This document shows, piece by piece, positions 6,480 to 27,973 of a stretch of 27,973 bases of DNA; within the stretch, counting starts at the first letter, position 1; every line of letters starts with the position of its first letter. Source of the stretch: a virus; IMG/VR virus record IMGVR_UViG_3300020195_000699, positions 1 to 27,973 of that record. The stretch is one strand, 5' to 3'. A model generated the notes under the pieces. It was given only the letters and a program-made list of their open reading frames with translations. It was not told the origin of the DNA and ran no database searches. A program made the position numbers and the translations under genes.

Positions 6480-6505
6480 CAGGTCGCCTCGCCTTCGGAT
6501 TGTTT

Positions 6506-6522: not shown

Positions 6523-6589
6523 TCTCCCGCATCTCGCGGCGGTGAAGGTCCGAGACTCTCGCGTCATTCCGCTACTGTGCACGCCTTAC

Positions 6590-7111: not shown

Positions 7112-7146
7112 CGCCGCACCCCCTAACCCCGAGTTGCTACCTTCAC

Positions 7147-7152
7147 ATTATC
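7147..7152 (-). promoter_or_regulatory. possible -10 element for the exported-protein gene
   Basis: GATAAT on the minus strand matches TATAAT at 5 of 6 positions, 36 bases before the GTG start. No good -35 hexamer is seen 16-18 bases upstream (the region reads CACGCAAC), so this is weak evidence that depends mainly on the neighbouring terminator-like sequence. Confidence 0.25.
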
Positions 7153-7185
7153 CCCGAATCGCCCAGATGTTGCGTGCCGCGAATG

Positions 7186-7207
7186 AAAAACCGCTACCGC
7201 TGGTGGT
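7186..7207 (-). terminator. terminator-like hairpin after the tail-tip gene
   Basis: Immediately after the tail-tip stop codon the minus strand reads ACCACC, AGC, GGT, AGC, GGT (7207-7190). This can pair as a 6-bp stem with a 3-base bulge, and is followed by five T (7190-7186) and CATT. The stem is short, so termination would be partial at best. Confidence 0.3.
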
Positions 7208-10200
7208 TCAGAGCTTCTGAATCAAGACGATCTTCTTGTGGTAGGGCAGCCCGCTCAATGCGGCCCCGGTCGAATGCGAGCTCGCACTCAGTCCGGGGTC
7301 GACCGTCGACAGTAGGGCTGTGATCGGATGCGCGTGCCCGCCGAACGCCTCGTTTTCCCCCCCTGCAGCGACGCTGATCGTAGACGCAGCCGCGTTCTCC
7401 CCGATATATTCATATGCCGAGAATCCCCCCATCGGAGCCGCGGAGGGTTGGATCACGGTCCCGCCGTGTGCATGCGAGAGTGTGTGCGAGGAGTTCGATT
7501 GCGTGTGAACATGCCCACCATCTCCGGATCCGGGAGCGGCAGGGCTCGCCGCAGCGCCCTTGATGAAGAAGCCGACCGCGGCCGTCAGGACTCCCCACCC
7601 GCCGGGAGCGTCAGCGGATTGCGCCCAGAAGATGATCGACCCCGCCGGTAGAACTGTCTGGTTCGCGTCGACCGGCTTCATAAACACCAGCTCGTAGAAA
7701 GGCAGGGCCGGCTCGTCGTCCGCGATCGTCCCGGACGCTGATCCAGATGTGGTGTTGTCCCCGGGCGCAGTGATGGTGAACGGGTGTTGATGCTCCCGTG
7801 AAGCGGCGACTCCACCGGTGAACGAATAGAAGAACTTCTGGGCAACGATCGTGTTCGTCGCCGACCCCAAGTTGAAGGCGGCTGCGGAATGGACGTGTCC
7901 ACCTGAGGAATGCGTGTGCGACGGCATCGCTCCGGTGTGCTTGTGCGTCCCCGCCGAGAACGCGGTGTTGACCACCTCCGAGTCGCCGGTGACCGTGGAA
8001 TTCGCCGAGTTGGGGAATGAATAGCTGTTGTCCTGGTCCGCCGTTTCGTGCATCGGCATGACCGTCCACGCCGTTCCGGACCCACCCGTCACAACGACGC
8101 GCACCACCTTGCTCGCGTCGGCGGTGTTGGTGATCGTCAGCCGCTTCCCGATCGATATGTTCGTGCCCGACAAGACGTTCAGCGTAGATCCCGAGTCGGA
8201 AGTCGTGAAGGCCGACGTGTTGACCCGAGTCGAAACGGCCCCGTTCGTCGTCGCTCCCCGGAGATACAGCCCGTCCAGGTCGGTGACGCGAGTCCACCCC
8301 GCTGGGATCGAAGCCGAGCGATACCCGACGATCAGGTCCTGAGAGAGCGCGCCCGTGGTGTTCGCCGTGCGCTGCATGAACTTCACGCGGCGGAAGTCGG
8401 GCTCGTTCGGTCCCGGCACGGTGGACAGCGAAGTCGGCGTGGCACTTGTCCCGCTCGAGGCCCCGACGTTCGAGGGTGCCCCGGGTACAGGGTGCGTGTG
8501 CCCGCCGTCGGTCAAGCCACGGTGCACATCGACCGGAACCTGCCGGCCGGCTGCCGGATAGGCGTACTTTCCGAGGTACTCAATCTCCCAGTCGAGAGTG
8601 ACTGCCCCGGCGCCGTCGATCCCGTGCGACGATGGTGTCGCCGAATGTTGGTGCGACGGAACATCGTGGACGTGCGAGAGGCTGTGCGTGTGGTGAGTGC
8701 CCCCGAGCTGCGTTGCCACATCGGGGGACGATGCTCCCATTGCGAACTGGTTCCGTAGGTCGGTCACCTCGGCGTAGTCGGTGATTGCTCCACTAGCCAA
8801 GGTGATCGGGATGCCGCCCATCGGAACGGAGTCAGGAGAGATGTCGACCCGATCAGCGACAGGATCGTTCTGTCGCTCAGCCTTCAGCTTGACAATCTTC
8901 GCGTTGGCGTCGTCATACTTGACCTCAGTGATGCGCCACACCGGGTACTCGTTGGCCATCTCCGGGACTCGCGGGTTCAGTCGGTGGTAGACATACTCCC
9001 CGACGATCGGCAGCCTCTCTAGTCCGTGCACAATCAACTCGAGCTGGTGACGCTGCCTCGAGTAGTGCAGGACGATGGGCGCTCCGATGCCCGCAGCGGA
9101 CGGTCCATCAGTGGCCAGTGCCTTGACCGCGATTCGCTTGGAACTCTGGATCGCGAACTTGCCCTCCGATGGAAGCGAGCTCGAGAGCCCTCGCGCTTCC
9201 ATGTCCGCGATGATTCTTTCGGCGACGCGATTGGAGGCTTGGAGGTTGACGTCGTAGGTGACCGCAGCCTCGTAGTAGTGCTCATCGAGGAACGAGAGCG
9301 CCCGCGGTTCCGATCGGACCGAATCCGCAAGGACGGCAATGCGATAGACCTCGACGTCGTCCAGCGCGATCGATGTAGCGACGGTGCTGCCGTGGGCGGG
9401 ATAGATTAGCAGCTCGGTGTGCCCTGCGTCCCCAGGTTCGGTTTCAACAAGAAGGGAATGCCTGGTCCACTTGCCGGTCTCCAAGACCATCGGGTCGGAG
9501 AGCGTCTCCACGCCGGATGGTCCGGTGACGCCGATCCGCAACAGGGTGGACGCGCCCGAGAGAAGGGACGCGAGAAACGTGACGACGTAGCTTCCCCCGC
9601 TCGGGAGAATGAAGTTCTGAGCGATAGCCGCCGCGGCATCAGGGGAGCCGCCGTTGGACACCTCCGCCGAGCGGGCGCCGTTGTACTTCCTCGAGGTAGT
9701 GGTCACGAAGGTGGCGGAGTTTGTGACCCGCCATGGGAACCCAGAGGTTGAGTCGTCCTCGAAGCCCGGATTGCGGCAAATGTTGCCCACCGTCAAGTCG
9801 GGCACGTCGATCGCGACTCTGCCTTGACGGTTGACCTTCCAGAACGCGAAGACCCTGGAGCACAACTCGGAGAGCGCATCTTCGGTGTTCATCGCGCCGT
9901 CGATGACCAGTCCGACCTTTGGTGCTGTGGGAATGATCCCGCTGTTGATCTGATACCGCCAACGACGGTCGATCATCCGGAACGAAGGCTCGACAAGATG
10001 CTTCGCTGACACTCCCCCGTAGGTGGCGAGAATGTGTCGCGCGATCGCGCCAGGCGTCTGAAGGGCCGTGCCGGTCGATGCTCCGGTGCTGGTCGAGCCG
10101 ATCAAATCGACGTAGACAACGTCCGCCGGCTCCGTGGTCGTAGGGAAAGCGGCGTTGTTGACCCGCACCTTCCCCAGGTCGATGTAGGCCGCGGTGACGT

Positions 10201-13338: not shown

Positions 13339-16300
13339 TCAGCCTCCGAACGAAATCCCAGCCTTGTCGGCAACTCGCTTTGCGATCGTCCACGCCTCGA
13401 TCAGGACCTCGTCGTTCATCTTGACCTCAGCGTGGAGCGGCTGATTCTTCAGCGAATCGGCAAGGCGATTGAGAGCCTTCGCGACATCCTGGTTGCCGGA
13501 ATCGCCGCTCCGTGCGCGACTCAGCGGGATGATCGCCTCCGGCCCTGACTCGCCGATAAGCGCGTACGTCGGACGGGTGACGATGCCACCAGCGGCCAAG
13601 TGCGGCAGATCTACCAACTGGCTGTCAGACACCCCGCCCGTCCTCCCGAAGGCGTCGAGCTGGGTGATCTTCTCGTCGGTCGTCACGAGCTTCTGTCCCA
13701 GGTCGCACTCTCCGGTGCATGCGTTCGCGGCCTTGTCCGCGGCCGTGTCGAAGCTCTGCCCGGCCCGGTCGATGTTTTGCACCGTGGTGTCGAGGTTGAG
13801 GCCCAGCGCCTTAGCCGCGTCCGTGCCGATGTCGATGATCGACTGTATGGCCGCCTTGAACGCGGGGTCGTCGAGGATGTCAGCGATCAAGCCGACCTGT
13901 ATCGCGATCCCGGCGGCGGCCATGGCGATGCCCTCCGCGCTGCCAGCAGCAATGGCCTTGCCGAGGTTCTCGAACTCCCCGGTGATCAAGGCGAGCATTG
14001 GAGCAAGCGCACCCTGGATCACTGCGGCGTCGATGAACGCACCGACCAAGCCCTCGACGATGTTGCCGTATACTGCCTGCCGGAGAGCCAGAGAGAACGT
14101 GTCGAATGACAGGTTCTTTGGGTCGCGCAGAGCAGACTGGAGACTGCCGCCGATCAGGTTGCCAGCGGTCGCGCTCGCCGTGGTCAGCGCGTCGACGACC
14201 TCCTCCTCCGTCTTCAGCCCGAAGGCCTCCGCGACAACGTCGAACGCCGGGCCCATGGCAAGGATCGCCGTCTCTGCCGTGCCGGCGAACTCTTCGGCCA
14301 TGTTCCCGAGTTCGGCCGCTTCCGCGACGTCGATGACCCCGTCCTTCATCGCCTCGCGCGTCGCATCGGAGAGCTTCTCGTTGAACGCCTCGAAAGCGAT
14401 GCTCTCGACGAGCGCGTTCATCATGCCATCGAGGACCCCTTCGCCCGTGGACTTCCTCAGCGCCTCCTGCAGGTCATCTGCGGATCCGCCGTTGGCGAAC
14501 TCCTCGATCGCGTTGTCGAAGTTGAAGGAGACCAGGACATCGAGCTTGTCGTCGCCGGCCGCTGGCTTGTCGCGCGGGTCGACGAAGTCGGGGTGTCGAG
14601 GGTCGAGCGGCGACGTGATCGGCTCACCCGTGTCGGGTCGTCCGACGCCGATCGGAATCAGGTCGCCGGTGCCGTTCGCGAAACCGGGCACGCCGTCAAG
14701 CGGCATGACCGAGACGCCGCCGCCCTCGTGCGCGAGGATCAGCTCGGGGCCACGCTCGCCGACGAACGCCATCGTGCCGGCCGGCACCGGGCCGCCGTTC
14801 GCGCGGCCAGGGATCGGCGGGACGAGTCCCAGCGCTTCGGCCAGCTTGCGCGCCGCCGCTTCGGCTAGGTCCAGTCCGCTCTTGAAGTTGCCACGGAGCG
14901 CCTCGGCAGCCTCGTCCGTCGCCGGCTGAAGCCCGCTGCGGAGCTTCTCGGCCATCTCGTCGGCGGCACCGGCCGCGCCAGTCGCGCCGAGCGCGAGCGC
15001 CACCTTTTCGGCCGACGACAGTACGCCGTCGCGCAGCGCCGTGCTGGCATCGGTGGCGGCTACGGCGAGCGCCTCCGCTCCACCGTTCGCCCCGAGCGCC
15101 GCCTTGATCTTTTCGAGCCCGGCTCCGATCTCTTCTGGGCTCGCGTCAGGACCGAACGCCTCGCGCAGCGCCGCGAGCCCGGCGCCGATCTCGGCCGCCT
15201 TGTCGCCCCCGAGCGCCGCCTTGATCTTTTCGAGCCCGGCTCCGATCTCTTCTGGGCTCGCGTCAGGACCGAACGCCTCGCGCAGCGCCACGAGCCCGTC
15301 GCCGATCTCGGCCGCCTTGTCGCCACCCAGCTCGACCGCGAGCGTGTTGATGCCGTCCTTTAGGGCGCCGGTCACGTCCGGCCCGACCGCGTCGCCGACC
15401 TCCTCCAGGTTCTTCGCGGCACGCCGCGCCATCTCGTCAAGCTCGCCGCCAGTATTCCTCGCGTTCTCGTTCAACTCCTTGACGTCATCCACCGCCTTGT
15501 CGGTGTTCCCGACGACCGTCTGTGCGACGCCGCCCAGGGTCTCGAGCGTCGGGCCGAGCGCGGTGAGCGTCGCGTCAGTCGCGCTGCCGACCCCCTTCGC
15601 GAGCCCGTCGATGAACGCCTGCTCGTCGGCCGAGATGAACCCGTCTTCGAGCGCGACCGAGACGGCCTGCTTGAGCTGCCCCATCAACGTGCCGAGCGCG
15701 CCCTCCATAACTGCGCTCTGCACGAGTGCTTCCTGCATCCCCTGCAAAATGTTGTCGCGCACCGACGAACGGAACGACTCACCGAACGCGGCGACGCCTT
15801 CGGATGTCGAGCCGCCACCCTTGATGACGTCGAACATCGAGCCACTCGCGCCGCCGACCGCGTCCCGGAGCGAGGACGTGGCGGCGTCGATCGCCTCTTT
15901 CAATCGGTCAGCCCGGAAGAGATCGGACAGGCCGGCCGTGCCGCTCGAGATGGAATCGGCGAACACTTGGCCCGCCTCATCCATCTTCGCCTTCAGGCGC
16001 GTGAGGTCGGCCTTTTCTGCCCCCGAGATCACGCCGTCCGAGAACGCCGCCGCGACCTTGAACTGGAACTCGGTGGTGAGTTGCGCGAGCGCGTCGCCCT
16101 GCGGACTCTTCGCAGCGAAGTCGCCAGCGGCTACCTTCGCCGCGTTGAACGCGCTCGCGTCGATCGTCGAGTCCATTTGCTCGCGCGCAGCATCGCGACC
16201 CGACCCGGGGGCGAGCGCTTCCGCGTTGGCAGCCACCTCGAACAACGACTCGGCCATGCCCTCGATCGCGTCCTTGTTCGCCCTGATTGTCTCTTCGAGA

Positions 16301-19300
16301 TTGATCCAGAACGCCTCGGCATCCGTCGGCTTGAGCGCCTCCTCGATCGCCTGATCGACCTCCGCGGCCGCGTCGCGTATCGCACGAAGCTGCGGGATGT
16401 ACTCCTGGAGATTCGCCTTGCCGAGCGCGATCGCGGATACCATCTGGTTGCGGAACGACTCCAGCCCGACCGTATCCGTCAAGTCGAAGTCGCCCCCCTG
16501 TAGCTTGGTGACTACCTCGAACACCGGAGAGAACGCTTCGGCGATTCTCGTCTTGTCGAACAGCTGCTCGGTGGCAACCCCGATCGTCGCGCTGTTGATC
16601 TGGTTGCGCAGCTCCTGCCCCATGGCTTCGATGCCGGAGAACACGGAATCTCCAGTGAACACCGCGGCGATGTTCCCGCCGATGAACGACGCCGACGCAG
16701 CGATCGAGGCTAGCTGGCGCTCGAACTCCTCCGTGTCAATCGAGAAGCCCTGCGCGACTAGCTGCTCGATGACGTCCATCGTCAGCGCGGTGTCGTCGGA
16801 GAGGTTGCGCAGCGTATCTTTGGCTGCATCGTCGATCTCGCCGAACGCGTTGACCCCGTCCTTTTCCATGTTGCGCAACGCGATCGAGGTCAGATTGACA
16901 CCAGCGGGGTAGTCGCCCTTGAACAGCTGAGTGACGCCAACGAGAGCCTCGGCGTACGAGCGGGCACCCTGAGCAGCGGCAGCAGACGGGTCGAGCCTTC
17001 CGAACTCGACACCAGCCGCCACGGAGTCTTCGAGCACGTCGTTGATGCCGCGCATCGAAGTCATAACGTCGATGCCAGCTTCGTGCGCGAACAGGCGGAG
17101 CTGGTCGAACATGGCCTCGAACTCGACGCCTTCCGCCAGCCCGCGCGACAGGAACTCGGCCATGATGTTGCCCATGGCCTCGCCGAGCCTGCCTGCGTCC
17201 TCGTTCAACTCACTGCTGCCGAGCTGCGAGAACAGCGACTGCGTTGCACCGAACGTGAGGTCGATCTGCTCGTCGCTGAACCCCCGCGCCCGCGCGGTGT
17301 CGCTACCCGTCAGGTTGTTTCTGGAGACGCCCTGCGGCCCGCCGCTCCGAACGGTGATGTCGCCGAACTTGACCTGGAGAGCTGCGAACGTCTCGCTCGA
17401 GTCGAGTATTGCCTCTGCGCCCTTGCGCATCGCGAGGCCCAGCGTCGGCAATGCCAACACGATGTCGGTGAGCCATGCGTGAAAAAACCCGTTCGGGTCG
17501 ATCAACTGTCCCGCTGCCGACTGCTGTACGCCAACGAAGCCCGTGTATTGGCCAGAGCGAAATGTGTCGCGATCGACAGAGCTAGCAATCGCGCTTGCGA
17601 GCCCGCTGCCCACGGCCGCGCCGAGAACGCCGCCAAGCGGGCCGAGCCAGATCGAGGCGACCGCGCCAATAACAGTCCCGATCACCTGGCCCAGCGTATT
17701 GCTGGCGTTGATCACGCCCTCCTCGACGCCCTTCGCCAGAATGCCCTGAAGCTGGGTGTTGTCGGTCGGCTGGAACAGGGAGAACGCAGTGGCCCCGCCC
17801 CCGAGGGCATCACTCGCGACCCCGCCGACATCGACCGTGCCGTCCTTGTTCCTCGCGACCCCGCCACCGATCCGCTCAGTGAAGCTGATGGACTCGCCAT
17901 CTGCGTTCTTCGAGCCGGTATCGCCGGTGAACAGCCCCTTCAGTCCGTCGAAGGTGGCTGCGCCGATGCCGCTGACGCCGCCCATCGTTTCCGTCCAGTC
18001 CTTGAGCAGACCGAGCGTGAACGACTGCCAGACATCCGACATCTCCAGCGTACCGTTGATCAGCCCGTCGATGGTCTGCCCAAACGCGGCGTCGATTCCT
18101 TCAAACGCATCATTGGCGTCATCCTTCGTTTCGCCAAACTTGTCCTTCAGCGCGTCAAGCTCATCCCCAAGCTTCTTGGCCTGATCGACTTGCTGCTCGG
18201 CTTGCTCCTGCGACGCGCCTTGCGACTTTTCTTTCTCGATCGCCAGTTGGCGATACGCCTCCTCGACCGAGATCACCTGCGCCTCCACCTGTCTCCAGAT
18301 GCCGACTTCCGTCGTGAGGTCAGCGATCTGCTTCGCGTTGTCGAAGGTGTTCGCAGCAGCAGCCTTCGCTGCACCGGCCGCACGCGCAGCGTCCTCCTCT
18401 AGTAGCCACGCACCGACGTTCTCGATGGTCGCGCCAGCCGCGAGCTTCTGGGCAGCCTCGACCTCAAGCGATGCGCGCGCGGCGTCATCGAGGATCGCAG
18501 CGAAGGCGTCTCCCCCAGCGACGCCTTGGAGTATCGCGTTTGTTTGGGCAAGGATCTGATCCGTGCTGGCCCGCATGGAAGCGGTCGACGTGATGAGCGC
18601 CGTGTTTGTCGCGGCCATGGCGTCCGCGACCTGTTTGGCGGCACCCGCGACCTTCGGCAGCTCGAGCGCGGTCTTACTCGCTGCACCGCCCGCGGCATCA
18701 ACAGCCGACGTGACGGGCGGAACCTTGGTGCCGAGCGTTTGGAACGAGCCACCCAGATCGTCGGTGAGCTTCAGGAACGGTTGCCCGGCCGCCTTCGCCT
18801 TCTCCACGGATGCGTTAAACGCGTCGATCCCTTGGCTGGCGGATAGGCCGAGCTGATCAGCGCGCGAGCGTGCACCGGGGGTGAGCAGTTCGTTCGGATC
18901 GAGGCCACCCTGGCCAGCGGCGATGTCATCGAGGAACCTGACTTGGTCAGCGGCGAATTTTGCGCCTTCAGCGATGATCGCCGCGAGCTTCGTCGTGAAC
19001 GTCGCCGCGACTTCCGTCACCAGCCCGGTGACGATTGCACTGCCGATGTTTGCGCCAACTTCCGTCGCTTTCGAGACCGCCGCATCCATCGCGCTGTTCA
19101 GGGCGTTGACCAGCGCCGGCCCGAACCCGATCTGTTCGACTTCGGTCTGGAAGGTCTTGACCACCCCGCTAGCTTCGCCCAGGGCATCGCGAACCCAGGT
19201 GCCGATCGCCTCGCCGAACGCTCGAATGCCCCCCTCGCCGATCCCAAGGGACGAGACCAGCTCGACCAGCTCGGTACCGGCCGCAGCCAGCGCCGGCGCC

Positions 19301-20124
19301 ATGCCGATCGCGAGCTGATTCTGCACACCCTCGACCGCAGCCATGAACACGTCGGTCGAGTCGCCGATCGAGTCCATGGCGCTCGTAAGCTCGCCGGTCA
19401 GATTCAGCCCCAGCTTGGCCGAGAGCTCTTGCCACTTCCGCAGACCGTCAGCGCCCTCGTTGAGGAACGGGATGAGCTGCGCGCCGGACCTGCCGAGGAG
19501 TTGCATCGCGATCGCGGTCTTTGCCGCGCCGTCCTCCGCTCCTGCGAACTGGTCCGCGATCTGGAGGAGGATCTCCTCGCTCGACTTGAGGCGTCCGTTC
19601 GCATCAGTGACGGCAATGCCCAGGGAGGCGAAGCCCGCCTGTGCCTCCTTCGAGCCGGTAGCCGCCTCAACCATGTTCCGCGAGAGCATCTGGATGCCGG
19701 TGCCGAGCCCCTCGATCGACACCCCCGACGTTCGCGCCCCGAGCTCGAGGGAGGACAGCGTCTCGACCGACACGCCGATCCTCTTCGAGAGGTCGTCGAA
19801 CTCTCCGCCCCGAGAGATGCCCGCGAAGACGCCCTCGATCGCGCCACCGATGGCGGACATCGCCTTGCCGGCCAGATCCAGAGCACCGACGACACCGCCG
19901 ATCTTGAGCGCGATCGACTCGAACGACGACAGGGACGAAGACGCCGCTTTCTTCGCGCTGTCGCCGAACTGATCCGCGGCGTGCTCGCCCTTGGCGAGAC
20001 TCTCGACGACGCCCTTCTTGAACCCGTCCCCGAATCCAGCTGCGAACTCGGACGCCTGCTTGAAGGCCGTCCGCACGCTGTCGGAGTTGGCCTTCAGCGT
20101 AATGACGTATTCGCGTTCAGCCAC
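13339..20124 (-). CDS. tail tape measure protein, 2261 aa
   Basis: This protein sets tail length and travels through the tail tube during DNA ejection. The call rests on size, Ala/Gly/Asp-rich helical composition, location after the frameshifting chaperone genes, a hydrophobic Gly/Ala-rich section (about residues 808-846, LGQVIGTVIGAVASIWLGPL) and two C-terminal motifs typical of tape measures, GERGPELI (about 1788) and GESGPEAI (about 2190). The N-terminus reads EREYVITLKANSDSVRTAFK. It carries a 39-residue perfect-period tandem repeat (about 1600-1678) and four DG-(V/F)-(I/L)-(S/D)-x-x-E motifs. At about 0.15 nm per residue the tail would be near 340 nm, an estimate only. GTG start 20124, two bases after the chaperone stop. 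Long plus-strand frames opposite it are shadows of its codon bias. Confidence 0.95.
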   Translation of the reverse strand: MAEREYVITLKANSDSVRTAFKQASEFAAGFGDGFKKGVVESLAKGEHAADQFGDSAKKAASSSLSSFESIALKIGGVVGALDLAGKAMSAIGGAIEGVFAGISRGGEFDDLSKRIGVSVETLSSLELGARTSGVSIEGLGTGIQMLSRNMVEAATGSKEAQAGFASLGIAVTDANGRLKSSEEILLQIADQFAGAEDGAAKTAIAMQLLGRSGAQLIPFLNEGADGLRKWQELSAKLGLNLTGELTSAMDSIGDSTDVFMAAVEGVQNQLAIGMAPALAAAGTELVELVSSLGIGEGGIRAFGEAIGTWVRDALGEASGVVKTFQTEVEQIGFGPALVNALNSAMDAAVSKATEVGANIGSAIVTGLVTEVAATFTTKLAAIIAEGAKFAADQVRFLDDIAAGQGGLDPNELLTPGARSRADQLGLSASQGIDAFNASVEKAKAAGQPFLKLTDDLGGSFQTLGTKVPPVTSAVDAAGGAASKTALELPKVAGAAKQVADAMAATNTALITSTASMRASTDQILAQTNAILQGVAGGDAFAAILDDAARASLEVEAAQKLAAGATIENVGAWLLEEDAARAAGAAKAAAANTFDNAKQIADLTTEVGIWRQVEAQVISVEEAYRQLAIEKEKSQGASQEQAEQQVDQAKKLGDELDALKDKFGETKDDANDAFEGIDAAFGQTIDGLINGTLEMSDVWQSFTLGLLKDWTETMGGVSGIGAATFDGLKGLFTGDTGSKNADGESISFTERIGGGVARNKDGTVDVGGVASDALGGGATAFSLFQPTDNTQLQGILAKGVEEGVINASNTLGQVIGTVIGAVASIWLGPLGGVLGAAVGSGLASAIASSVDRDTFRSGQYTGFVGVQQSAAGQLIDPNGFFHAWLTDIVLALPTLGLAMRKGAEAILDSSETFAALQVKFGDITVRSGGPQGVSRNNLTGSDTARARGFSDEQIDLTFGATQSLFSQLGSSELNEDAGRLGEAMGNIMAEFLSRGLAEGVEFEAMFDQLRLFAHEAGIDVMTSMRGINDVLEDSVAAGVEFGRLDPSAAAAQGARSYAEALVGVTQLFKGDYPAGVNLTSIALRNMEKDGVNAFGEIDDAAKDTLRNLSDDTALTMDVIEQLVAQGFSIDTEEFERQLASIAASASFIGGNIAAVFTGDSVFSGIEAMGQELRNQINSATIGVATEQLFDKTRIAEAFSPVFEVVTKLQGGDFDLTDTVGLESFRNQMVSAIALGKANLQEYIPQLRAIRDAAAEVDQAIEEALKPTDAEAFWINLEETIRANKDAIEGMAESLFEVAANAEALAPGSGRDAAREQMDSTIDASAFNAAKVAAGDFAAKSPQGDALAQLTTEFQFKVAAAFSDGVISGAEKADLTRLKAKMDEAGQVFADSISSGTAGLSDLFRADRLKEAIDAATSSLRDAVGGASGSMFDVIKGGGSTSEGVAAFGESFRSSVRDNILQGMQEALVQSAVMEGALGTLMGQLKQAVSVALEDGFISADEQAFIDGLAKGVGSATDATLTALGPTLETLGGVAQTVVGNTDKAVDDVKELNENARNTGGELDEMARRAAKNLEEVGDAVGPDVTGALKDGINTLAVELGGDKAAEIGDGLVALREAFGPDASPEEIGAGLEKIKAALGGDKAAEIGAGLAALREAFGPDASPEEIGAGLEKIKAALGANGGAEALAVAATDASTALRDGVLSSAEKVALALGATGAAGAADEMAEKLRSGLQPATDEAAEALRGNFKSGLDLAEAAARKLAEALGLVPPIPGRANGGPVPAGTMAFVGERGPELILAHEGGGVSVMPLDGVPGFANGTGDLIPIGVGRPDTGEPITSPLDPRHPDFVDPRDKPAAGDDKLDVLVSFNFDNAIEEFANGGSADDLQEALRKSTGEGVLDGMMNALVESIAFEAFNEKLSDATREAMKDGVIDVAEAAELGNMAEEFAGTAETAILAMGPAFDVVAEAFGLKTEEEVVDALTTASATAGNLIGGSLQSALRDPKNLSFDTFSLALRQAVYGNIVEGLVGAFIDAAVIQGALAPMLALITGEFENLGKAIAAGSAEGIAMAAAGIAIQVGLIADILDDPAFKAAIQSIIDIGTDAAKALGLNLDTTVQNIDRAGQSFDTAADKAANACTGECDLGQKLVTTDEKITQLDAFGRTGGVSDSQLVDLPHLAAGGIVTRPTYALIGESGPEAIIPLSRARSGDSGNQDVAKALNRLADSLKNQPLHAEVKMNDEVLIEAWTIAKRVADKAGISFGG
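15091..15324 (-). repeat. two 117-base tandem copies inside the tape measure gene
   Basis: 15091-15207 and 15208-15324 are identical except for two substitutions near the end of the unit. Each encodes 39 residues, starting with GGDKAAEIG and ending in GAGLEKIKAAL. The near-identity at DNA level points to a recent in-frame duplication that lengthens the tape by 39 residues. Confidence 0.9.
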
Positions 20125-20126
20125 GG

Positions 20127-21022
20127 CTACTCGTCCTCGTCATCGTGCGACTTGGGCCTGCCGACCGCTTCCTGTGCGGCCTCTGCGACGCTCGACGCCC
20201 AGAGCAACGCTTCCAACCTTCGCTCCGGCCGAATCATGTAGAGCCGACACAGCGCCTCGAAGTCCTGCAGGTACAAGACCCCGTAAATGTGCTCGTCCCG
20301 CTTGCCCTTGCTCTTCCGGACCTCGTAGCGGAGCGCTTGACGGCAGAACTGATAGACGGAGTACAACTCGGGATCGGCGAGGAAGATCTCCCATGGGCAC
20401 TCGTCGAAGATGCACGTCCCGGGCTCTTTCTTGAGCGAGGTCCTGACCGCGCAGGAGTCCTCGCTCTTAGTCTCGAAAGGCGCGCGCCCACAGGCCGAAG
20501 GGCGGTTCAGCTTGAAGACCTGGAGGGCGAACGCCTTCAGTCGTTTTTTTGGTCCTCGACCTCCGCCTGCTGCTCACGGGCGCGGTTCCACATCGCGTCT
20601 TGGATCAGGTCGCCGAACTCCGTGGAGTCGGTGTGGGAGAGCAAGTAGACCGCAGCCTCTACCGAGAACTCGATCTCGTCCTTCGATCCGCTCGGGGCAT
20701 CGAGCACGACGTCACCACGGTTGATGTGGTCGAAGTTCTTCGGGGCAAGGCCCGACCACCCGAGAAAGAACTTCTGCGCGTAGCTCTCCCGCCAGTCGAG
20801 GCGGAACTTCTTTGCCTGCGGGCTACCGGGACGAAAGCCTTTCGTTGGAGCCTTCGCCTGCTGCGCCTCCGAGAGTGCGTTCAGGTCGTCGACGGTGCCC
20901 TCCCTGACGATGACGACGAAGGCCGGCTCCTCCGGCCCCGTCGCGCCAGCGGGAATGATTGAGACGTCGATGGTCTTTCGCTCGCGCGGGACGAGCTTGT
21001 AACCCTTGGGCAAGAACGACAT
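20127..21022 (-). CDS. tail assembly chaperone fusion (lambda G-T type) made by -1 frameshift, 298 aa
   Basis: Reading the upstream frame to AAC (20545-20543) and slipping back one base gives an open frame of 138 more residues with no stop, ending at TAG 20127, for 298 residues in total. The second part continues RLKAFALQVFKLNRPS and later LADPELYSVYQFC. The stand-alone frame here has only a TTG internal start at 20366, which supports expression by frameshift rather than as a separate gene. In lambda the minor G-T fusion binds the tape measure and recruits tail tube subunits, and neither chaperone is in the finished virion. The gene sits directly before the tape measure, the conserved place for this arrangement. 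The T part has several Cys (SACGR, DSCAV, GTCIFDEC), unusual but without known meaning. Confidence 0.9.
20523..20549 (-). promoter_or_regulatory. programmed -1 frameshift site A AAA AAC with downstream stem-loop
   Basis: The heptamer A AAA AAC occupies 20549-20543 in the correct phase (CAA AAA AAC in the zero frame), followed by GAC TGA. Four bases after the heptamer, 20538-20523 can form a 6-bp stem with one A-C mismatch and a GUUC loop. The -1 frame is open to 20127. This is the canonical tail-chaperone frameshift design. Confidence 0.9.
20537..21022 (-). CDS. tail assembly chaperone (lambda gpG type), unshifted product, 161 aa
   Basis: ATG 21022 has a strong GGAGGAG ribosome binding site. 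The 161-residue protein begins SFLPKGYKLVPRERKTIDVS and contains an alpha/beta region (AFVVIVREGTVDDLNAL) plus a helical C-terminal half (FSVEAAVYLLSHTDSTEFGD, then MWNRAREQQAEVEDQKND). It lies between the tail tube and tape measure genes, the fixed location of this chaperone. Its last codons CAA AAA AAC contain the slippery heptamer; non-shifting ribosomes stop two codons later and make this major product. It is expected to coat the tape measure during tail assembly with the longer fusion at a low ratio. Sequence similarity in this family is low, so the call rests on position, frameshift and size. Confidence 0.88.
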   Translation of the reverse strand: MSFLPKGYKLVPRERKTIDVSIIPAGATGPEEPAFVVIVREGTVDDLNALSEAQQAKAPTKGFRPGSPQAKKFRLDWRESYAQKFFLGWSGLAPKNFDHINRGDVVLDAPSGSKDEIEFSVEAAVYLLSHTDSTEFGDLIQDAMWNRAREQQAEVEDQKND

Positions 21023-21069
21023 GCACTCCTCCTGTGACTGTCAAAGTTGCGGTTGATGGTGAGCGTCGA

Positions 21070-22050
21070 TCAAGTCTTCTCGACGAAGGAGATCGAGAGC
21101 TCGCCCTCGTCGGTGATCGACTGGAGCCCGTAGCGAACGCGCATCATGCGGATGCCATTGTCGTCCTCTGGCGTGATGGAGACGGGCTGCGGCGTCGTGG
21201 CGGAGATGACGATCCTCGACTGGACACCGTCACCGTGCGTCGCGGTAATCGCGTTGGAAGAGGTGCCCGCCGAGATTTCCGCCCAGAAATTCTTGTTCAC
21301 GAGGGTGTCCTCGAACTCGAACAGGAACTCCATGAACGGGTCGCGGTCGGTGATGTGCGTGCCCTTGAATCCGAAGGTGTGATTGACGCTTCCCCGATCC
21401 GGGCGCGTCGTGCCCCAGTCGAGCATGATCTCGCGACAGACCAGCCCTTGAGCGTCTCCCCAGCCGCCGATGGCGAGACCCATGCTCTGCACCATCGTGG
21501 AGTTGTCGTTGGGGTAGGTCGGCGCCGCGGGGAACGCCACGGTGGTCGGCTCGTTGTACCTGCCATCCATCGTGAAGTTCAGCGTCGGGTCGTCACCCGC
21601 CGGCAGTTTCAGCTGGAACCCGCCGTAGATGCCGTTGGCCTTCTTCAGCAGCCCGTCGGCGTAGACCCACGCGGTTGCCGAGACCGGCAAGTCCGAGGTC
21701 GGGGTGTAGACCGTTGAGCTCGATCCGCCACCAGACCCGGAAGCTGCGGCGAGGCCGCTCGCCTTCAACAGAGGACCGAAGAAGGGCGCCCCAAACCCCG
21801 CCGAGACGCCCTTCGACATGAGGATCGTCTGCGGGGTGAAGTTCCACTTGTGGCGACCGATGCCGCGCTTCCCGCGGGTCAGGGACTTGCGCAGGGGACG
21901 GCGCTCGATCAGCTTGACGTCCGGCTTCATGATGTTTCCGTCGCCGAACACGATCATGCTGTCGACCGACGAGGACGGCGTCGGGTCCGTCCCGTAGCTC
22001 ACCTCCGACTTGACCAGGCAAAGGGTCTTCCGAACCAGGTTCAGCCCCAT
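21070..22050 (-). CDS. major tail tube protein, 326 aa
   Basis: ATG 22050 has GGAGGT six bases upstream; the frame extends a little further upstream (22065) without support. The protein opens with GLNLVRKTLCLVKSEVSYGT, a typical tail-tube N-terminus. It continues with PQTILMSKG and PFFGPLLKASGL around residues 75-100, and beta-rich segments to the C-terminus (MRVRYGLQSITDEGELSISF). Hexamers of this protein stack around the tape measure to form the tail channel. At 326 residues it is longer than the compact tubes of lambda (about 250), which leaves room for a surface-exposed inserted domain. Position after the tail terminator and before the chaperones fits. It should be the most highly expressed tail gene and has a stable UUCG hairpin before its ribosome binding site. 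The adjacent glycosyltransferase suggests it may be glycosylated (inference). Confidence 0.85.
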   Translation of the reverse strand: MGLNLVRKTLCLVKSEVSYGTDPTPSSSVDSMIVFGDGNIMKPDVKLIERRPLRKSLTRGKRGIGRHKWNFTPQTILMSKGVSAGFGAPFFGPLLKASGLAAASGSGGGSSSTVYTPTSDLPVSATAWVYADGLLKKANGIYGGFQLKLPAGDDPTLNFTMDGRYNEPTTVAFPAAPTYPNDNSTMVQSMGLAIGGWGDAQGLVCREIMLDWGTTRPDRGSVNHTFGFKGTHITDRDPFMEFLFEFEDTLVNKNFWAEISAGTSSNAITATHGDGVQSRIVISATTPQPVSITPEDDNGIRMMRVRYGLQSITDEGELSISFVEKT

Positions 22051-22066
22051 GACGACACCTCCCACG

Positions 22067-22080
22067 CCGGCCGAAGCCGG
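22067..22080 (-). promoter_or_regulatory. C(UUCG)G tetraloop hairpin upstream of the tail tube gene
   Basis: On the minus strand CCGGC-TTCG-GCCGG forms a perfect 5-bp stem with a UUCG loop closed by C-G, an exceptionally stable tetraloop. It lies about 5-6 bases before the GGAGGT site of the tail tube gene, in the 86-base gap after the glycosyltransferase (22051-22136). No promoter consensus is evident in that gap, so the hairpin may mark an mRNA 5' processing or stabilising element. Confidence 0.45.
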
Positions 22081-22136
22081 AAGACGTGATCGTGAGGTGA
22101 GGATGAGTCGCGGTTACGACGCCACCGCGCAGGGCG

Positions 22137-23177
22137 CTACGTCCCCAATCCGCCAAGTGACGTAGTGGGCGATGGTGGGACGATAGCACGATGGCGGTCC
22201 GCGGTCACACGATCGAGGATCTCGACGAGCTTTCTCGCCGATGCTCCCCACGAAAATCGACGCATGTCGCGAGCGGCCTGCTTGCCGATCTTCAACGCCC
22301 GAGGATAGTCGAGCATCACCTCGGAAACCGCCCGCATCGCGTCCTGTAGGTCTGGCCACGCATAGCCCCGGTCCTTCTTGCCGGAGAGCTTCACTGGAAA
22401 ACTGTTGGCCCGGTCGGCGTACTCCTGGCTGCCGGAGTAGTCGGTGATCACAGTCGGCAGTCCGGTGGCCATGGCTTCGGCGCCGGCAAGCCCGAAACCC
22501 TCGCCGCAATGCAGGAACAGGAACCCGTGCGATTGGTGGTAGAGCTCGATCAGCTCCGACACCGGAAGCCGCCGGTTGTCGAAGGTCACGCCCTGACCAT
22601 GCAGAAGTCCCGGCTCGATCTCTTTTGCCGAACCAGATTCGAGGATCTCGGGCAGTTTCCGGACGTCCGCTCCGGTGGTCTTGATGTAGAGCTCGACTCC
22701 CGGCCACCGGGAGAGCAGGACCTGATGCAGGTTCGTCAGCTCGGTAAACTTCCGCGGATTGGGGGCGCCGACGTACAGCCAACGGAACTTCTGGCCCGGT
22801 CGCCATGACCTCGGGCGGTGCTTGAACAGATGGACGTCAACCCCGAGAGGGCAGGTGTAGATCGGCGCGTTGGTGTGCGGCCGGAACAACTCGACGCAGA
22901 ACTTCGACGGCGTGATGATCACGTCCGCGGTCGCCAGCCCAACGAGTGCCTGGTAGGGCATCTCTGGCGACTCGAACATCGTGAACAGGATCGAGAGTCC
23001 GTCGCTGGGCTCGTGGTCCATGGGCGTGCCGTAGGTCACCGCGAGATCAGCTGCGTCGTCGAGTTCTACCAGCGGAGCCAGGTGCTTCAGCAGCATCGCG
23101 TTGGACGCCGCGTAGCCGAGGAAGTTACCCACGGCCTCGTCGGGGTGCCCAACCTTCCCGACCCAACGGACCTTCAC
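22137..23177 (-). CDS. glycosyltransferase, GT-B fold, family 4 type, inside tail module
   Basis: The 346-residue protein transfers a sugar from a nucleotide-activated donor. The GT4-type C-terminal domain is clear: WLYVGAPNPRKFTELTNLHQ (about 157-176), HGFLFLHCGEGFGLAGAEAM with the E-x7-E motif (Glu 226 and Glu 234), and a downstream GLPTVITDYSGSQEY. The N-terminal domain is recognisable but shorter (FTMFESPEMPYQALVGLATADVIITPSKFC, in two parts). The start is GTG 23177, overlapping the upstream stop (GTGA) with AGGG six bases before; the TTG at 23207 lies within the previous gene. No signal peptide or membrane helix, so it acts in the cytoplasm. Lodged between tail terminator and tail tube genes and coupled to the former, it probably glycosylates a virion tail protein. 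Donor and acceptor are unknown. Confidence 0.9.
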   Translation of the reverse strand: MKVRWVGKVGHPDEAVGNFLGYAASNAMLLKHLAPLVELDDAADLAVTYGTPMDHEPSDGLSILFTMFESPEMPYQALVGLATADVIITPSKFCVELFRPHTNAPIYTCPLGVDVHLFKHRPRSWRPGQKFRWLYVGAPNPRKFTELTNLHQVLLSRWPGVELYIKTTGADVRKLPEILESGSAKEIEPGLLHGQGVTFDNRRLPVSELIELYHQSHGFLFLHCGEGFGLAGAEAMATGLPTVITDYSGSQEYADRANSFPVKLSGKKDRGYAWPDLQDAMRAVSEVMLDYPRALKIGKQAARDMRRFSWGASARKLVEILDRVTADRHRAIVPPSPTTSLGGLGT

Positions 23178-23662
23178 CTGATGCCCTGGACGGACGGATC
23201 GTGCCAAGACGTTCGGTAGTCGAGCTCGTAGGTGATGTCGCCGTACACCGTGGCGTTCTCCGGGCCGTAGCCGTTCAGCACGTTCTGCTTCTCGCGAATG
23301 TTGACCTTCGTCGGGCCGGTTCCACCAGCGGCCTTCGCGACGGTCAAGCTCATCTCCCCGCCGATCTTCACGGCCTTCTGGATGTCCGCGAGAAACGCGG
23401 ACGCCTCTCCGTCAGGGTCGTCGCCGCCGTATGCGTCCACGAAGACGAGCATGATTTTGAGGAGGCGGCGGTAGCCGGATCCGTCTTCCCTCGGAATCTC
23501 CTCCGCCTGCAGCATTACGATTCCCGGTCGGGCCACGGCCAGTGGGTTGGACCGCTTCGAGAAGACGCGTTCGCCGACCTCGCGAGAGTAGCCGTTTGCT
23601 TCGGTGATCTGCGTCAATCTAGTCCGGAAAGCGGAGATGACCTGGTCGCGGATGATTGCCAC
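23174..23662 (-). CDS. tail terminator / tail completion protein, 162 aa
   Basis: The protein caps the growing tail tube and joins it to the head. Evidence is the family-like layout: IRDQVISAFRTRLTQIT at the N-terminus, a Gly-rich EVGERVFSKRSNPLAVARPG around residues 28-47, alternating strands (LLKIMLVFVDAYG, residues 67-79) and a C-terminal strand pair (ATVYGDITYELDYRTSW). It resembles lambda gpU-type terminators in size and in position, after the gp10-like gene and before the tail tube. GTG 23662 is the start, with GAGGG nine bases upstream. Its stop overlaps the glycosyltransferase start by four bases, so the two are translationally coupled. Family similarity is weak, so position carries much of the call. 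Confidence 0.75.
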   Translation of the reverse strand: MAIIRDQVISAFRTRLTQITEANGYSREVGERVFSKRSNPLAVARPGIVMLQAEEIPREDGSGYRRLLKIMLVFVDAYGGDDPDGEASAFLADIQKAVKIGGEMSLTVAKAAGGTGPTKVNIREKQNVLNGYGPENATVYGDITYELDYRTSWHDPSVQGIR

Positions 23663-23663
23663 G

Positions 23664-24200
23664 TCAGAGGTCCCTCAACGCCATCCCGACGTACTTGTCG
23701 ATCAGAGCCGGGGCTTGCGCTTCCGCGGTCTTGGTCAAGTACCCGGAACCCTCCTGCCTGACCTCCATCACCCTCCGCCATTCGGTCCCTGACGCGAGCC
23801 CCGAGAGCTTCGCCGCCCCATAGCCGAGCCCACCGACGCCGGATGCGGTGAACGCCGCTCCGGCCACAGGGAAGAACAGGCCCTTGTCGGTCTTGGCGCG
23901 AATGACCCCGCCCGGGAGGTATCCGGTGCCTTCGTCCCTGACCCGCGCGTACTTGAGTACGGTCGCGTTGGAGCCCTGCATGAAGCCGACCTTGAGCTCC
24001 AGGCCGGCGGATCCCGCGGTGATCACTCCGGTCGGGTGGATCGCCGATCGAAGGCGAGCGCTCTTGACCGGGGCGTTGCTCACGACCGCAGACGACAGCT
24101 CTTGCCCGACCCACTCTAGCCCCCTACGGAGAGCAGCGGTCACCTTGACAGCGTCCTCCTCGAGGAACCGCGGATCAGCGATTTCGACGTCAACCCTCAC
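23664..24200 (-). CDS. HK97 gp10-like head-tail/tail component, 178 aa
   Basis: The start is GTG 24200, overlapping the connector stop as GTGA; the longer frame to 24605 is a shadow. The pattern ALRRGLEWVGQELSSAVVSN followed by APVKSARLRSAI (residues 20-55) is the recurring 'hydrophobic helix then thin-tail-like N-APV-(K/D)-(T/S)-G-x-L' signature of the gp10-like family of siphophages. A Gly-rich middle with HK97 gp10-type strands (YARVRDEGTGYLPGGVIRAK) and a C-terminal helix (TAEAQAPALIDKYVGMALRD) follow. These proteins sit at the head-tail junction. Gene order connector, gp10-like, terminator, tail tube is the usual one. No unusual features except a Gly/Ala-rich central segment. Confidence 0.8.
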   Translation of the reverse strand: MRVDVEIADPRFLEEDAVKVTAALRRGLEWVGQELSSAVVSNAPVKSARLRSAIHPTGVITAGSAGLELKVGFMQGSNATVLKYARVRDEGTGYLPGGVIRAKTDKGLFFPVAGAAFTASGVGGLGYGAAKLSGLASGTEWRRVMEVRQEGSGYLTKTAEAQAPALIDKYVGMALRDL

Positions 24201-25117
24201 AGGCGTACCGGTCGGTATACCGGGTCGCGAAGAATCGCCTCGACTCCGGGAAGGATGTCCTTGACGTAGATGGTCAAGCTTCCGGGTGCAGTCGATTCCG
24301 AGGTGATGCCGAGCTTGTCTCGGTGCTGGAACCAGAACGCCACTTGCTGGATCGCCGCCATGTGGAGGTCCGCTGGGGCGTCGCCGACATCCCGACAGAG
24401 CCCGCCTTCGTAGGTGACCTGCACGGACTTCGCCCCGGCAAGGAAGGGACGACTTCTCATGCGGATGATACCGTGCGGCTCGATCGCGTAGTCCCCTGCA
24501 GTGATCACGTTCGGGTCGGTCACGAAGTCGCCGTGGAAGTCCTCTTTGATCGAGGCCACCGATGCGATTGGGAACCGCTTGACCCGGACCCACCACTGGT
24601 CCCACCGCGGAGAGAACGTCTCGACCAACCCCGAAGCCCTGCGGAACACGCGTCCGGTGACGTTCTGCGCTCGAATGGTGAAGGCGTCGATCAGCTTCTC
24701 TACGAAGAGCTGGTGAGAGTCGTCGATGTCCTTCAACTGCAGCTTGACGTCATCGAAGGTGCAGAGGTTCCGGAGAGCGGTGCAGTAGAGGCGGTGGACG
24801 ATCTTGCCCTTCAGCCCCGACGTGGTGGTGAACAGGATCTCCGCGGCGTGCTCTTCCGATTCGAGGGTCGCATCGAGCAACGTCGTGTCGAGGATCGCGA
24901 TGGTCCAGACCAAGGCCCCGGAGCTGTTTACCGTCACTCCGTTGCTGTTGAGGACGTTCTGAGCACTGCGGGAGTTGACGATCGACCCCGACCTTGCGTC
25001 CCTGAGCGTCATCGTCAGGGCAGAGAGGTTCGCTACGGGGATGACTGCCCCAGCGTTGTCGAGCAGGGTATAGCGCGCCTCTCCGGTTGTGCCTGCGTCA
25101 AGTCGGACGATAGCCAT
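24197..25117 (-). CDS. gp6-like head-tail connector fused to an N-terminal beta domain, 306 aa
   Basis: Residues about 118-306 resemble the HK97 gp6-type head-tail connector: FDDVKLQLKDIDDSHQLFVE, then a helix into NVTGRVFRR (about 155-163), a beta segment, FPIASVASIKEDF and a final helix (HMAAIQQVAFWFQHRDKLG). Residues 1-115 form an unrelated beta-rich domain (ARYTLLDNAGAVIPVANLSA then LTMTLRDA, later SGALVWTIAILD) like the BppU/Ig-like N-terminal domains of phage baseplate or surface proteins. The family is usually about 100-200 residues, so the extra domain roughly doubles it. A dodecameric ring below the portal is expected, with the extra domains facing outward. ATG 25117 has AGGGGG five bases upstream. 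The stop overlaps the next start (GTGA). Confidence 0.8.
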   Translation of the reverse strand: MAIVRLDAGTTGEARYTLLDNAGAVIPVANLSALTMTLRDARSGSIVNSRSAQNVLNSNGVTVNSSGALVWTIAILDTTLLDATLESEEHAAEILFTTTSGLKGKIVHRLYCTALRNLCTFDDVKLQLKDIDDSHQLFVEKLIDAFTIRAQNVTGRVFRRASGLVETFSPRWDQWWVRVKRFPIASVASIKEDFHGDFVTDPNVITAGDYAIEPHGIIRMRSRPFLAGAKSVQVTYEGGLCRDVGDAPADLHMAAIQQVAFWFQHRDKLGITSESTAPGSLTIYVKDILPGVEAILRDPVYRPVRL

Positions 25118-25143
25118 TCAGACCCCCTTCACGGCCCGGTGCC

Positions 25144-27954
25144 TCAGTACTCCGTCAACTGCAACGTCGCCCCGGCGCCGAACTGTGCGCTGGCGGCGGT
25201 GTCGGCGCAGGCGCAGAGCCGATACGACACGGAGCCGGACTGCCCGGTGTCGGTAAAGCCCAGCGCGACCGTGGTGTTCTCATTCGACTTGAGTTCGGTG
25301 TCTGCCGTCACGAGCGCGGCAGCGGAGCAATCCGCCCCGCGCGCGATTTTCGTGGTGAATACGCGCGTTACTGCGCCGGTGATATCGGCCGCCGCAAAGC
25401 CCTGGAGCCTGATGGTCCGGCCGCTGGTGGCGGCGTGAGTGATCGACGTGGCCTGCGTGAAGGTCGTGCAGCCCGTCATGCCGACGGTGCCGGAGTTCTG
25501 CCCGTAGGCGAACTTCGGGAACGCCTCGGTTGTGTTCTGGATCGGTGGCGTGACACCGATCAGGCAGTCGAACGTGAGGCCGGTCGTGGTGGTTTCAAGG
25601 GCCGAGCCGATGATAAGGTCCGAGCTACCCGAGATGGTGGCGACGCTACCGGCTGTCGACCCCGACGGTTTCAGCAAGTCGCCACGTGTCACCGAGCCCT
25701 GCGCGATGCATACCCCAACACCCGATGTCAGCACCTTCGCCGGGTAGGTGCTCAGCGCGGTCGCGAGCACGACACCGACCGCGCGCTCGGGGTTTGCCGT
25801 CGTCGTCTTGGTGACCGTGTTGGCTGCCGCAGTCGAGACGGATACGACCTGGCCGCGCGTCAGCGCCTCGCCCGCAGTCAGCGTGACGGGCTCGCCTTGG
25901 TCGTCGGTCGCGATCAATCCCTTCAGGCCCGAGACGTCGCCATAGCTCCAGTCCCAATTCACCAGCGGCGTCGTGACCCCGGAGGCGTCACCAGAGATCG
26001 TCACATTCTCGACCTGCCCCCTGCACTTGCCGCTCCCGGTGCAGGTGGCGTCGGCTGCGCACGATGTTCCGTCGTTCGAGCCGCCGACGCAGACGCGCGC
26101 GATTGCCGGGAACTTGAAGCCAGTCGTGAATCCCTGGAGCTTGACGCCGAACACGCCCCAATTTATAATTGATGGTGTGTCGGCCACCACGGCAACACCG
26201 ACCGAGGATGTAGAGAGATCGACTGCCGTCGTACCGTTGCCGAAGTAGAACATTGCACCGTCAATCAGGGAATTGTTCCAGAATAGAAAGTCGCACGCGC
26301 CCGTGGAGCAGTCGCCATCTACCGTGCACGGCCCCCCGAAGTCGGTAGCGGCGGAGTTCACGCAACGCTTCGAGTCTGTCGTCCGAAGGAAGGTCGTGGA
26401 AGCGCCCTGGTCGGTGTGCCATAGCGAACCAGCGCCGAGCACGAAGTGACCCGCCGAGCCAGCCGGGAACAAGTCATTCGCGTTGCACGCTGCGCCAGTC
26501 GGGCACCCGATCGTGGCGTCGTTGCCAGCACCAAAGACACAGACCTTCCCCGATCTGGTACCCGACGCGCAGAGGCCGCGCTGGTCGCCGAGGCCCACGA
26601 TTGCGCCACGGCCCCCCCATGCACCGCGATTGCCGATGTACTGGTTCCCGGACCCCTGAACGATAAATTTCGGCCCGATGTTGCCGTCGCAGTAGGCGTT
26701 CGTGACGATGAAGTTGTAGCCGTCGTTGAACTTTGGCAGGACGCAATAGAGGCTAGATCCGCCCCGGAAGTCGTCGGCGATCACGCCAGCCAACGAGATC
26801 AACAGGTCGGAGTTGCCGACCCAGCCGCTCAGCGACGGGTCGCCATAGCCCCCTCCGGTTGACGACGAGATGGTGTTGAAGCCCATCGCGTGAATACCGG
26901 CCGTCCAGCCGTAGCCGGTCGACCGGACAACCGAAGTGGCGATGCCGGCGATGATGCCCTTGTCGGTCGAGGCGTTGACCTGGTAGTTGACCCAGCCGTT
27001 CGTCGCGATCTGCGGCGTCGTCAGCGAGGTGCCGTTGTTCGCGCTGTCGATCACCCGGCCGCTGGCGCCGGTCTTGATCGTGAAGTCGCCACGGCGGTGG
27101 TCGTAGACCGTGACGTTCTCGACCCGCGCGTTCGAGGCCGCGCCGAAGTCGATCGGGTTGATCTTCCCGGGACCGCTCGCACCCCAATTCGTCGCGTATG
27201 GCACGTCGCCACAGGTGCCGCCGTCCGCCTTGCAGTGCCCGGCCGGGATCGTGCAAGCGCCGGCCCCGCAGTTGAGGTCGACGTTGCAAGCGACGCCCTC
27301 CAGTATGCCGGACGACGCGTTGCAAAACTGCGCGCACGCTTCGCCCAAAGTCCCGCCGCCGGTGTTGTCGCAGTAGCCCCATCGCTTCCCGGCGCCACCC
27401 ATTGCCGGCGAGTCGCCAGACGCACCGTTGACCCAGATTCCGCAGTTCTTGATCGCGATGTTCTTGGCGCTCGCCGCAGCGCCAAAGACGGTGTAGGTCG
27501 ATGCTTCGGTCGGGGCGAAGGCCGTCACCGCATTAGCGTCGGCGACGCACGTCCCGTTGACGCACTGGTTATCGGCCGTGCAGGCAGCGCCCGGCGTGTC
27601 GCTGACTCCACTGCACGACTTGCGCGCCAGCACGAAGCCAGCGGTTCCATCCTCGCACTGGATCGTCGTGTTGCTGGCGAGGTCCGCAACCGAGTCGGCC
27701 GCACCCGACGTACCGAGCAAGATCTTGCAGCCACTCGGAACGAACAGCGTCTTGCCGGCTGCTTCGCCGCCCGATTCGAGCGCGGCCCGCAGTACCGCCG
27801 TGTCGTTCTTCGAGTACGCGCAGCCGACGTTGAGCGCACGCACGTTAAGCTGCGGCCCCGAGTAGCCGTTCAGCCCATCGAGCAGCGCGGCGGGCGTGGC
27901 GCTCGCGAGCAATACGCCCACGAGCGCCGTAAGGAAGATAGACCAGCGACGCAT
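25144..27954 (-). CDS. exported beta-helix protein with DUF2190-like segment and Cys motifs, 936 aa
   Basis: I start this at ATG 27954 with GAAGG four bases upstream; a TTG lies one codon earlier. Residues 1-24 are a clear signal peptide (RRWSIFLTALVGVLLASATPA). Residues about 36-110 begin a right-handed beta-helix of the pectate-lyase/tailspike type (LNVRALNVGCAYSKNDTAVL ... LFVPSGCKILLG), and repetitive Gly/Asn-rich rungs run to about 660. Four CxxDxxCxxG-type motifs (such as CTADNQCVNGTC and CTVDGDCSTGAC) interrupt it; these are typical of exported proteins of deltaproteobacterial-type bacteria. About 683-783 resemble DUF2190 phage capsid-associated proteins (EPVTLTAGEALTRGQVVSVS ... ITRGDLLKPSG pattern). 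The C-terminus (830-936) is a Cys-containing beta domain. It could be a tailspike, an exported depolymerase or a capsid decoration. Catalytic residues are not identifiable. Confidence 0.8.
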   Translation of the reverse strand: MRRWSIFLTALVGVLLASATPAALLDGLNGYSGPQLNVRALNVGCAYSKNDTAVLRAALESGGEAAGKTLFVPSGCKILLGTSGAADSVADLASNTTIQCEDGTAGFVLARKSCSGVSDTPGAACTADNQCVNGTCVADANAVTAFAPTEASTYTVFGAAASAKNIAIKNCGIWVNGASGDSPAMGGAGKRWGYCDNTGGGTLGEACAQFCNASSGILEGVACNVDLNCGAGACTIPAGHCKADGGTCGDVPYATNWGASGPGKINPIDFGAASNARVENVTVYDHRRGDFTIKTGASGRVIDSANNGTSLTTPQIATNGWVNYQVNASTDKGIIAGIATSVVRSTGYGWTAGIHAMGFNTISSSTGGGYGDPSLSGWVGNSDLLISLAGVIADDFRGGSSLYCVLPKFNDGYNFIVTNAYCDGNIGPKFIVQGSGNQYIGNRGAWGGRGAIVGLGDQRGLCASGTRSGKVCVFGAGNDATIGCPTGAACNANDLFPAGSAGHFVLGAGSLWHTDQGASTTFLRTTDSKRCVNSAATDFGGPCTVDGDCSTGACDFLFWNNSLIDGAMFYFGNGTTAVDLSTSSVGVAVVADTPSIINWGVFGVKLQGFTTGFKFPAIARVCVGGSNDGTSCAADATCTGSGKCRGQVENVTISGDASGVTTPLVNWDWSYGDVSGLKGLIATDDQGEPVTLTAGEALTRGQVVSVSTAAANTVTKTTTANPERAVGVVLATALSTYPAKVLTSGVGVCIAQGSVTRGDLLKPSGSTAGSVATISGSSDLIIGSALETTTTGLTFDCLIGVTPPIQNTTEAFPKFAYGQNSGTVGMTGCTTFTQATSITHAATSGRTIRLQGFAAADITGAVTRVFTTKIARGADCSAAALVTADTELKSNENTTVALGFTDTGQSGSVSYRLCACADTAASAQFGAGATLQLTEY

Positions 27955-27973
27955 CAAGCCTTCGCTATCAAGC

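Follow-up and report, generated by a model that had tools for sequence, protein, structure and literature searches.

A gene located between the tail terminator and tail tube genes of a 27,973-base virus fragment (the window, i.e. the whole stretch of DNA that was analysed) was confirmed, by its sequence and a structural model, as coding for an intact GT4-type glycosyltransferase (GT) of GT-B fold, predicted to be active and retaining. We moderately favor the view that this enzyme glycosylates the virion at the tail, the tube protein being its leading acceptor; this prediction combines sequence, modelling and comparative analysis. It is supported by the invariant catalytic residues, the GT-B model, the structural context of GT genes in 64 of 68 contigs, the separate clades of tail and head copies, and the conserved pairing of GT and tube genes.

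In the proposed scheme a soluble retaining GT4 enzyme would be made late, together with the tail genes. Before the tail is assembled, or while assembly is under way, it would use a nucleotide-sugar donor to glycosylate a virion protein, for which the neighbouring major tail tube protein is the likeliest candidate. Phages of this group would have two paralogues, a head copy situated by the major capsid protein gene and a tail copy situated by the tube gene. We infer the GT activity, the virion acceptor and the tube as that acceptor, as well as the sugar used and the benefit gained (masking, stability or evasion).

The GT gene in the tail operon

All structural genes of the window are on the minus strand, in the order head-tail adaptor, neck, terminator, GT, tail tube, a gene where the chaperone is expected, and tape measure. 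The features are as follows.

24197..25117, minus strand: head-tail adaptor, 306 aa (phrog_442, 8.3e-16)
23664..24200, minus strand: neck/tail completion protein (gp10-like), 178 aa (phrog_5, 0.0051; neck profile match; start read from the sequence)
23174..23662, minus strand: tail terminator, 162 aa (phrog_4204, 2.7e-7; neighbour-gene cluster 5)
23174..23177, minus strand: GTGA stop/start overlap of terminator and GT (read from the sequence)
22137..23177, minus strand: GT4-type glycosyltransferase, tail-site copy (GT-T), 346 aa (Pfam, PHROG, alignment, fold match)
22476..22502, minus strand: E226-x7-E234 motif (GEGFGLAGAEA), invariant in 51 homologues (coordinates computed from the GTG at 23177)
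21070..22050, minus strand: major tail tube protein, 326 aa, two-domain T5/P74-26 type, proposed acceptor (PF18906, 3.8e-11; phrog_290; fold match)
21712..21744, minus strand: Ser/Gly-rich tube residues 103-113, speculative acceptor site (composition)
20537..21022, minus strand: gene following the tube gene, where a tail assembly chaperone is expected, 161 aa (assigned by position alone; L007 has a homologue)
13339..20124, minus strand: tail length tape measure protein, 2261 aa (phrog_8462, 2e-35)

The PHROG and Pfam profiles of the neighbours bear out the initial annotation, which had placed the GT gene inside a tail operon, between terminator and tube; the 161-aa gene at 20537..21022 had no PHROG match. 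The GT open reading frame extends from the GTG at 23177 to the TGA ending at 22137 without an internal stop, and an AGGG Shine-Dalgarno-like motif is located 6 nt upstream of the GTG. The terminator frame (23662..23174) stops with the TGA inside ...AGGGCATCAGGTGAAGG..., so that the start of the GT gene in a 4-nt GTGA overlap, as initially described, was confirmed from the sequence. Overlaps at the same junction were observed in five relatives: GTGA in L011, ATGA in L010 and L081, TTGA in L007 and TAATG in L076. The adaptor/neck junction (24197-24200) is also a GTGA overlap; thus, such an overlap is not special to the GT gene, and coupling of this kind is usual within operons.

The gap separating the GT and tube genes contains a CCGGC-UUCG-GCCGG hairpin with no T-run (22062-22080, minus strand), which may separate expression of tube and GT; folding of the GT-tube gap carrying this hairpin was no more stable than that of shuffled sequences (z −0.45).

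Some other large proteins of the window deserve mention. A 1771-aa protein encoded after the tape measure gene (7208-12523, minus strand) carries a CBM_4_9 carbohydrate-binding domain at residues 914-1022 and probably belongs to the tail tip or a fibre. Genes for large proteins whose N-termini resemble signal peptides separate the head genes from the adaptor gene in the structural operon of the window (25144-27957, minus strand), in L172 (9225-13488) and in L010; the 937-aa protein of the window has Cys-rich repeats of CTVDGDCSTGAC type and a weak match to phrog_673. Contig L002 is 99.8% identical to the window over 15207-25269, with no alignment beyond 25269 (window 25269-27973 versus L002 1-1226); the region of the 937-aa gene therefore seems to be variable among near-identical viruses.

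Enzyme family, catalytic residues and fold

The GT protein matched GT4-conflict (7.4e-10), Glyco_trans_1_4 (4.2e-8) and Glycos_transf_1 (9.6e-8) in Pfam, all past the cut-off, and the glycosyltransferase family phrog_2170 (1.1e-19) in PHROG. Residues G21, E69, G112, R142, K143, K166, D200, E226, G227, E234 and W310 were invariant across 51 homologues; these sequences thus share both the E-x7-E motif and the basic donor-phosphate residues (R142, K143, K166) that mark GT4 enzymes. The AF2 model has a GT-B fold (pLDDT 93, pTM 0.90). With the uninterrupted frame, the profile matches, the invariant pair of Glu residues and this model in agreement, the earlier reading of the gene as an intact GT-B glycosyltransferase with E-x7-E is upheld.

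The closest structural matches of the model were two retaining GT4 enzymes, MshA (Z 29.8, with 302 residues aligned) and BshA (Z 28). MshA, BshA, a chlorovirus NY2A GT (3oy2) and SdgB are alike in fold over the whole length of the GT, at 13-20% identity, and differ in acceptors. SdgB glycosylates Ser of a protein, i.e. a GT4-type fold is able to take protein acceptors; the fold is also common to lipid and small-molecule GT4 enzymes, e.g. PimA and BshA. As the acceptors of enzymes with this fold differ, the fold is silent on the acceptor of the GT. No membrane segment was detected in the protein (best 19-residue hydropathy 1.49), and its N-domain is acidic, with net charge −5.

The tail tube protein

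For the tube gene the start at ATG 22050 (326 aa, with AGGTG upstream) is more likely than the one at GTG 22065. The initial annotation had taken the tube for an enlarged one, with room for an exposed domain that could accept the sugar. The predicted tube, however, matches the two-domain tubes of P74-26, T5 and SH-Ab15497 over its full length, and in P74-26 and T5 each subunit is built of two tube-fold domains (PMC10034513). The length of the tube is thus accounted for by a duplicated tube fold with no added surface domain. Tubes at GT-free junctions (about 308-392 aa) are as long as those at GT-bearing ones (319-339 aa), and in cultured phages that share this gene order the tube measures only about 192-196 aa; hence the suggested co-occurrence of the transferase with a long tube was not seen. 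Given the structure match and the family-normal length, we rejected a domain beyond the tube fold as the sugar acceptor.

Within the tube, residues 103-113 form a Ser/Gly-rich stretch, which is Ser-rich also in L007, L008 and L011, less so in L010 and not in L073 or L081. This composition is suggestive only of a candidate glycosylation site, the compared tubes being uncontrolled for relatedness.

Genomic locations of the GT homologues

A search with the GT sequence alone produced 77 loci, which reduced to 68 non-redundant phage contigs, the window included. Neighbour-gene profiles recognised structural genes around the GT gene in 64 of them; as in the window, the transferases are encoded along with structural genes. 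Two sites recurred: a common one directly after the major capsid protein gene and before the adaptor gene, and another between terminator and tube. The latter was occupied in the window and in 11 other contigs: L007, L008, L010 (terminator not recognised), L011, L073, L076, L081 and L169, with second copies in L043 and L058 and a copy in L069, the tubes of L058 and L069 being less certain. Searching with the tube sequence only, for which we used a three-sequence alignment (a broad tube alignment was too variable), we found four loci: a near-twin of the window, L007, L010 and L169, the last of them new. The GT gene was directly upstream in all four.

Several features of the capsid site are worth recording. 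A gene for a radical SAM or SPASM-type enzyme was found beside the GT gene in 24 of the 68 contigs (L013, L014, L015, L018, L025, L026, L029-L032, L036, L037, L039, L041, L045, L048, L049, L056, L058-L061, L063, L068), in most cases in the interval from capsid to head-tail adaptor; together with the head GT it is a possible virion-modification cassette. In L012 we saw by eye what seems to be a second, divergent GT in the capsid-adaptor region.

A genome-wide scan contributed 80 loci, which were examined along with Kitkat and Che8 (82 in all). Phage structural profiles matched only L085, a contig of a planctomycete MAG with the order portal, capsid, GT, adaptor (5616-10286), which represents either a prophage or a phage binned with the MAG and hints that some of the GT-bearing phages infect planctomycetes. 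The remaining loci are presumably ordinary bacterial GT4 genes.

Head and tail copies in the same phage

Both a head and a tail copy were present in the records of L007, L008, L010, L011, L043 and L058. Among them are the four nearest relatives of the window with sufficiently complete records (L007, L008, L010 and L011), each of which yielded a second GT in a whole-record search. This second GT gene is directly downstream of the capsid gene in L007, L008 and L011; for L010 the capsid gene is past the contig end or was not recognised. The window contig itself stops upstream of the adaptor region, short of the expected position of the capsid gene. In L069, which has a tail copy, a head copy was not detected in a whole-record search; therefore, the head/tail pair is not obligatory.

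In phylogenetic analysis, the copies at the tail site in the window's group were monophyletic (100/99), and the head copies carried by these phages grouped in a second clade with other head GTs (98/90). The tail copies of L058 and L069 were placed elsewhere, outside the tail clade of the window's group, so that the tail site was filled at least twice; single origin of all other tail copies was not rejected (p 0.53). These data raise the possibility, which we put forward tentatively and a little short of an even chance, of paired virion GTs, in which one GT4 paralogue would serve the major capsid protein and another, inherited separately, the tail tube. In the many relatives where the head copy shares a cassette with radical SAM/SPASM enzymes, these may build virion glycans or peptide modifications of unknown type.

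Other possible substrates

The earlier proposal of a virion substrate with the tube as acceptor thus retains the conserved GT-tube pair and the two-copy pattern on its side and loses the one based on the size of the tube. An acceptor is not proven by gene position, and late operons carry morons as well. Distant homologues from Streptomyces phages, located outside the structural genes, the tail-clade copy of L003 near the portal gene, a fold shared with lipid and small-molecule enzymes and a tube with no added exposed domain also count against a tube-directed enzyme.

One could suppose that the GT acts on a virion protein other than the tube (capsid, decoration, neck or fibre protein) and that its place next to the tube gene reflects only the timing of expression. 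Most GT homologues indeed adjoin the capsid gene, the tube has no obvious exposed domain, and L003 carries a tail-clade copy upstream of the portal gene (1614-2633), with a head-clade GT after the capsid gene (9076-10068). Still, paired copies sit one at the capsid gene and one at the tube gene, as separate clades, and the GT-tube pair was retained in all relatives of the tube found in the tube-only search; we regard a non-tube acceptor as unlikely.

The enzyme could also be a moron riding in the late operon and acting on the host envelope, with LPS, capsule or teichoic acid as the glycan whose modification would block superinfection or phage-receptor binding. PHROG classes the family as moron/AMG; GT4 enzymes often build envelope glycans, and such enzymes are among the Pfam and NCBIfam neighbours. 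Against this, the genes are nearly always found in the head-connector-tail cassette, at two specific junctions refilled at least twice, and an enzyme aimed at the host would leave it unexplained why there are two paralogues, linked to capsid and tube. Enzymes of PimA/WaaG type have a basic membrane-docking face, unlike the soluble GT with its acidic N-domain. We find this explanation rather improbable.

A DNA-modifying GT acting on hypermodified bases could be imagined from the best Pfam match (GT4-conflict) and from the gene overlapped by the tail-clade GT of L003, which reads by eye as a DNA C5-cytosine methyltransferase; with structural neighbours and no base-hypermodification genes recognised beside the GT gene in the window or in most relatives, we rejected this reading as highly improbable for want of supporting neighbour genes.

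Comparison with known systems

The initial annotation held that tail glycosylation would be new in this phage group. The gene order as such is not new: terminator, annotated GT, (small ORF), tail protein is already present in the annotated genomes of the cultured Arthrobacter phages Kitkat, KellEzio, BeatusComedenti and DanielleIgnace and Microbacterium phage Magritte. The terminator of DanielleIgnace carries no more than a hypothetical-protein annotation and was placed by synteny. The GTs of these phages are very divergent, that of Kitkat having been reached only via another family member (25% identity over 62%). Unlike the window, the cultured phages with this order have, besides the short tubes, an ORF of 47-69 codons between GT and tube; no ORF of this size was recognised in the GT-tube gap of the window. 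In the records of cultured phages, small ORFs between GT and tube were located at 16633-16842 in L084, 7184-7327 in L166 and 5597-5803 in L167.

Mycobacteriophages, cited earlier as a precedent, are reported to encode enzymes that attach sugars to their capsid and tail tube proteins (PMC12363180, which cites Freeman et al. 2023 for virion glycosylation of Che8, Corndog and Myrna). The precedent holds for this outcome and fails for the enzymes and their positions. The Che8 proteins gp108, gp109 and gp110 belong to GT2 and GT25, not GT4, and are encoded at the right end of the genome; the Corndog transferases are in the structural operon, between portal and protease and not by the tube (PMC4351075). 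We found no homology of the window GT to the Che8 enzymes, and in a tblastn search with the window GT there was no mycobacteriophage among the matches. The phrog_2170 GTs of Streptomyces and Rhodococcus phages belong to the same family, with about 30% identity in an alignment covering two thirds of the protein; their genes are beside ribonucleotide reductase or endolysin genes, outside the structural operon. The window GT is probably a variant of the already known virion-glycosylating transferases, from an enzyme family different from that of Che8.

Implications

If the proposed function is true, sugar-coating of phage heads and tails would be widespread in environmental siphophages rather than special to actinobacteriophages, and its evolution would have drawn on another enzyme family, with head and tail each served by an enzyme of its own. 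Virion glycans influence antibody recognition (PMC12363180), and could affect stability and adsorption. With two paralogues per genome, each having a named candidate acceptor, the pairing would be directly testable.
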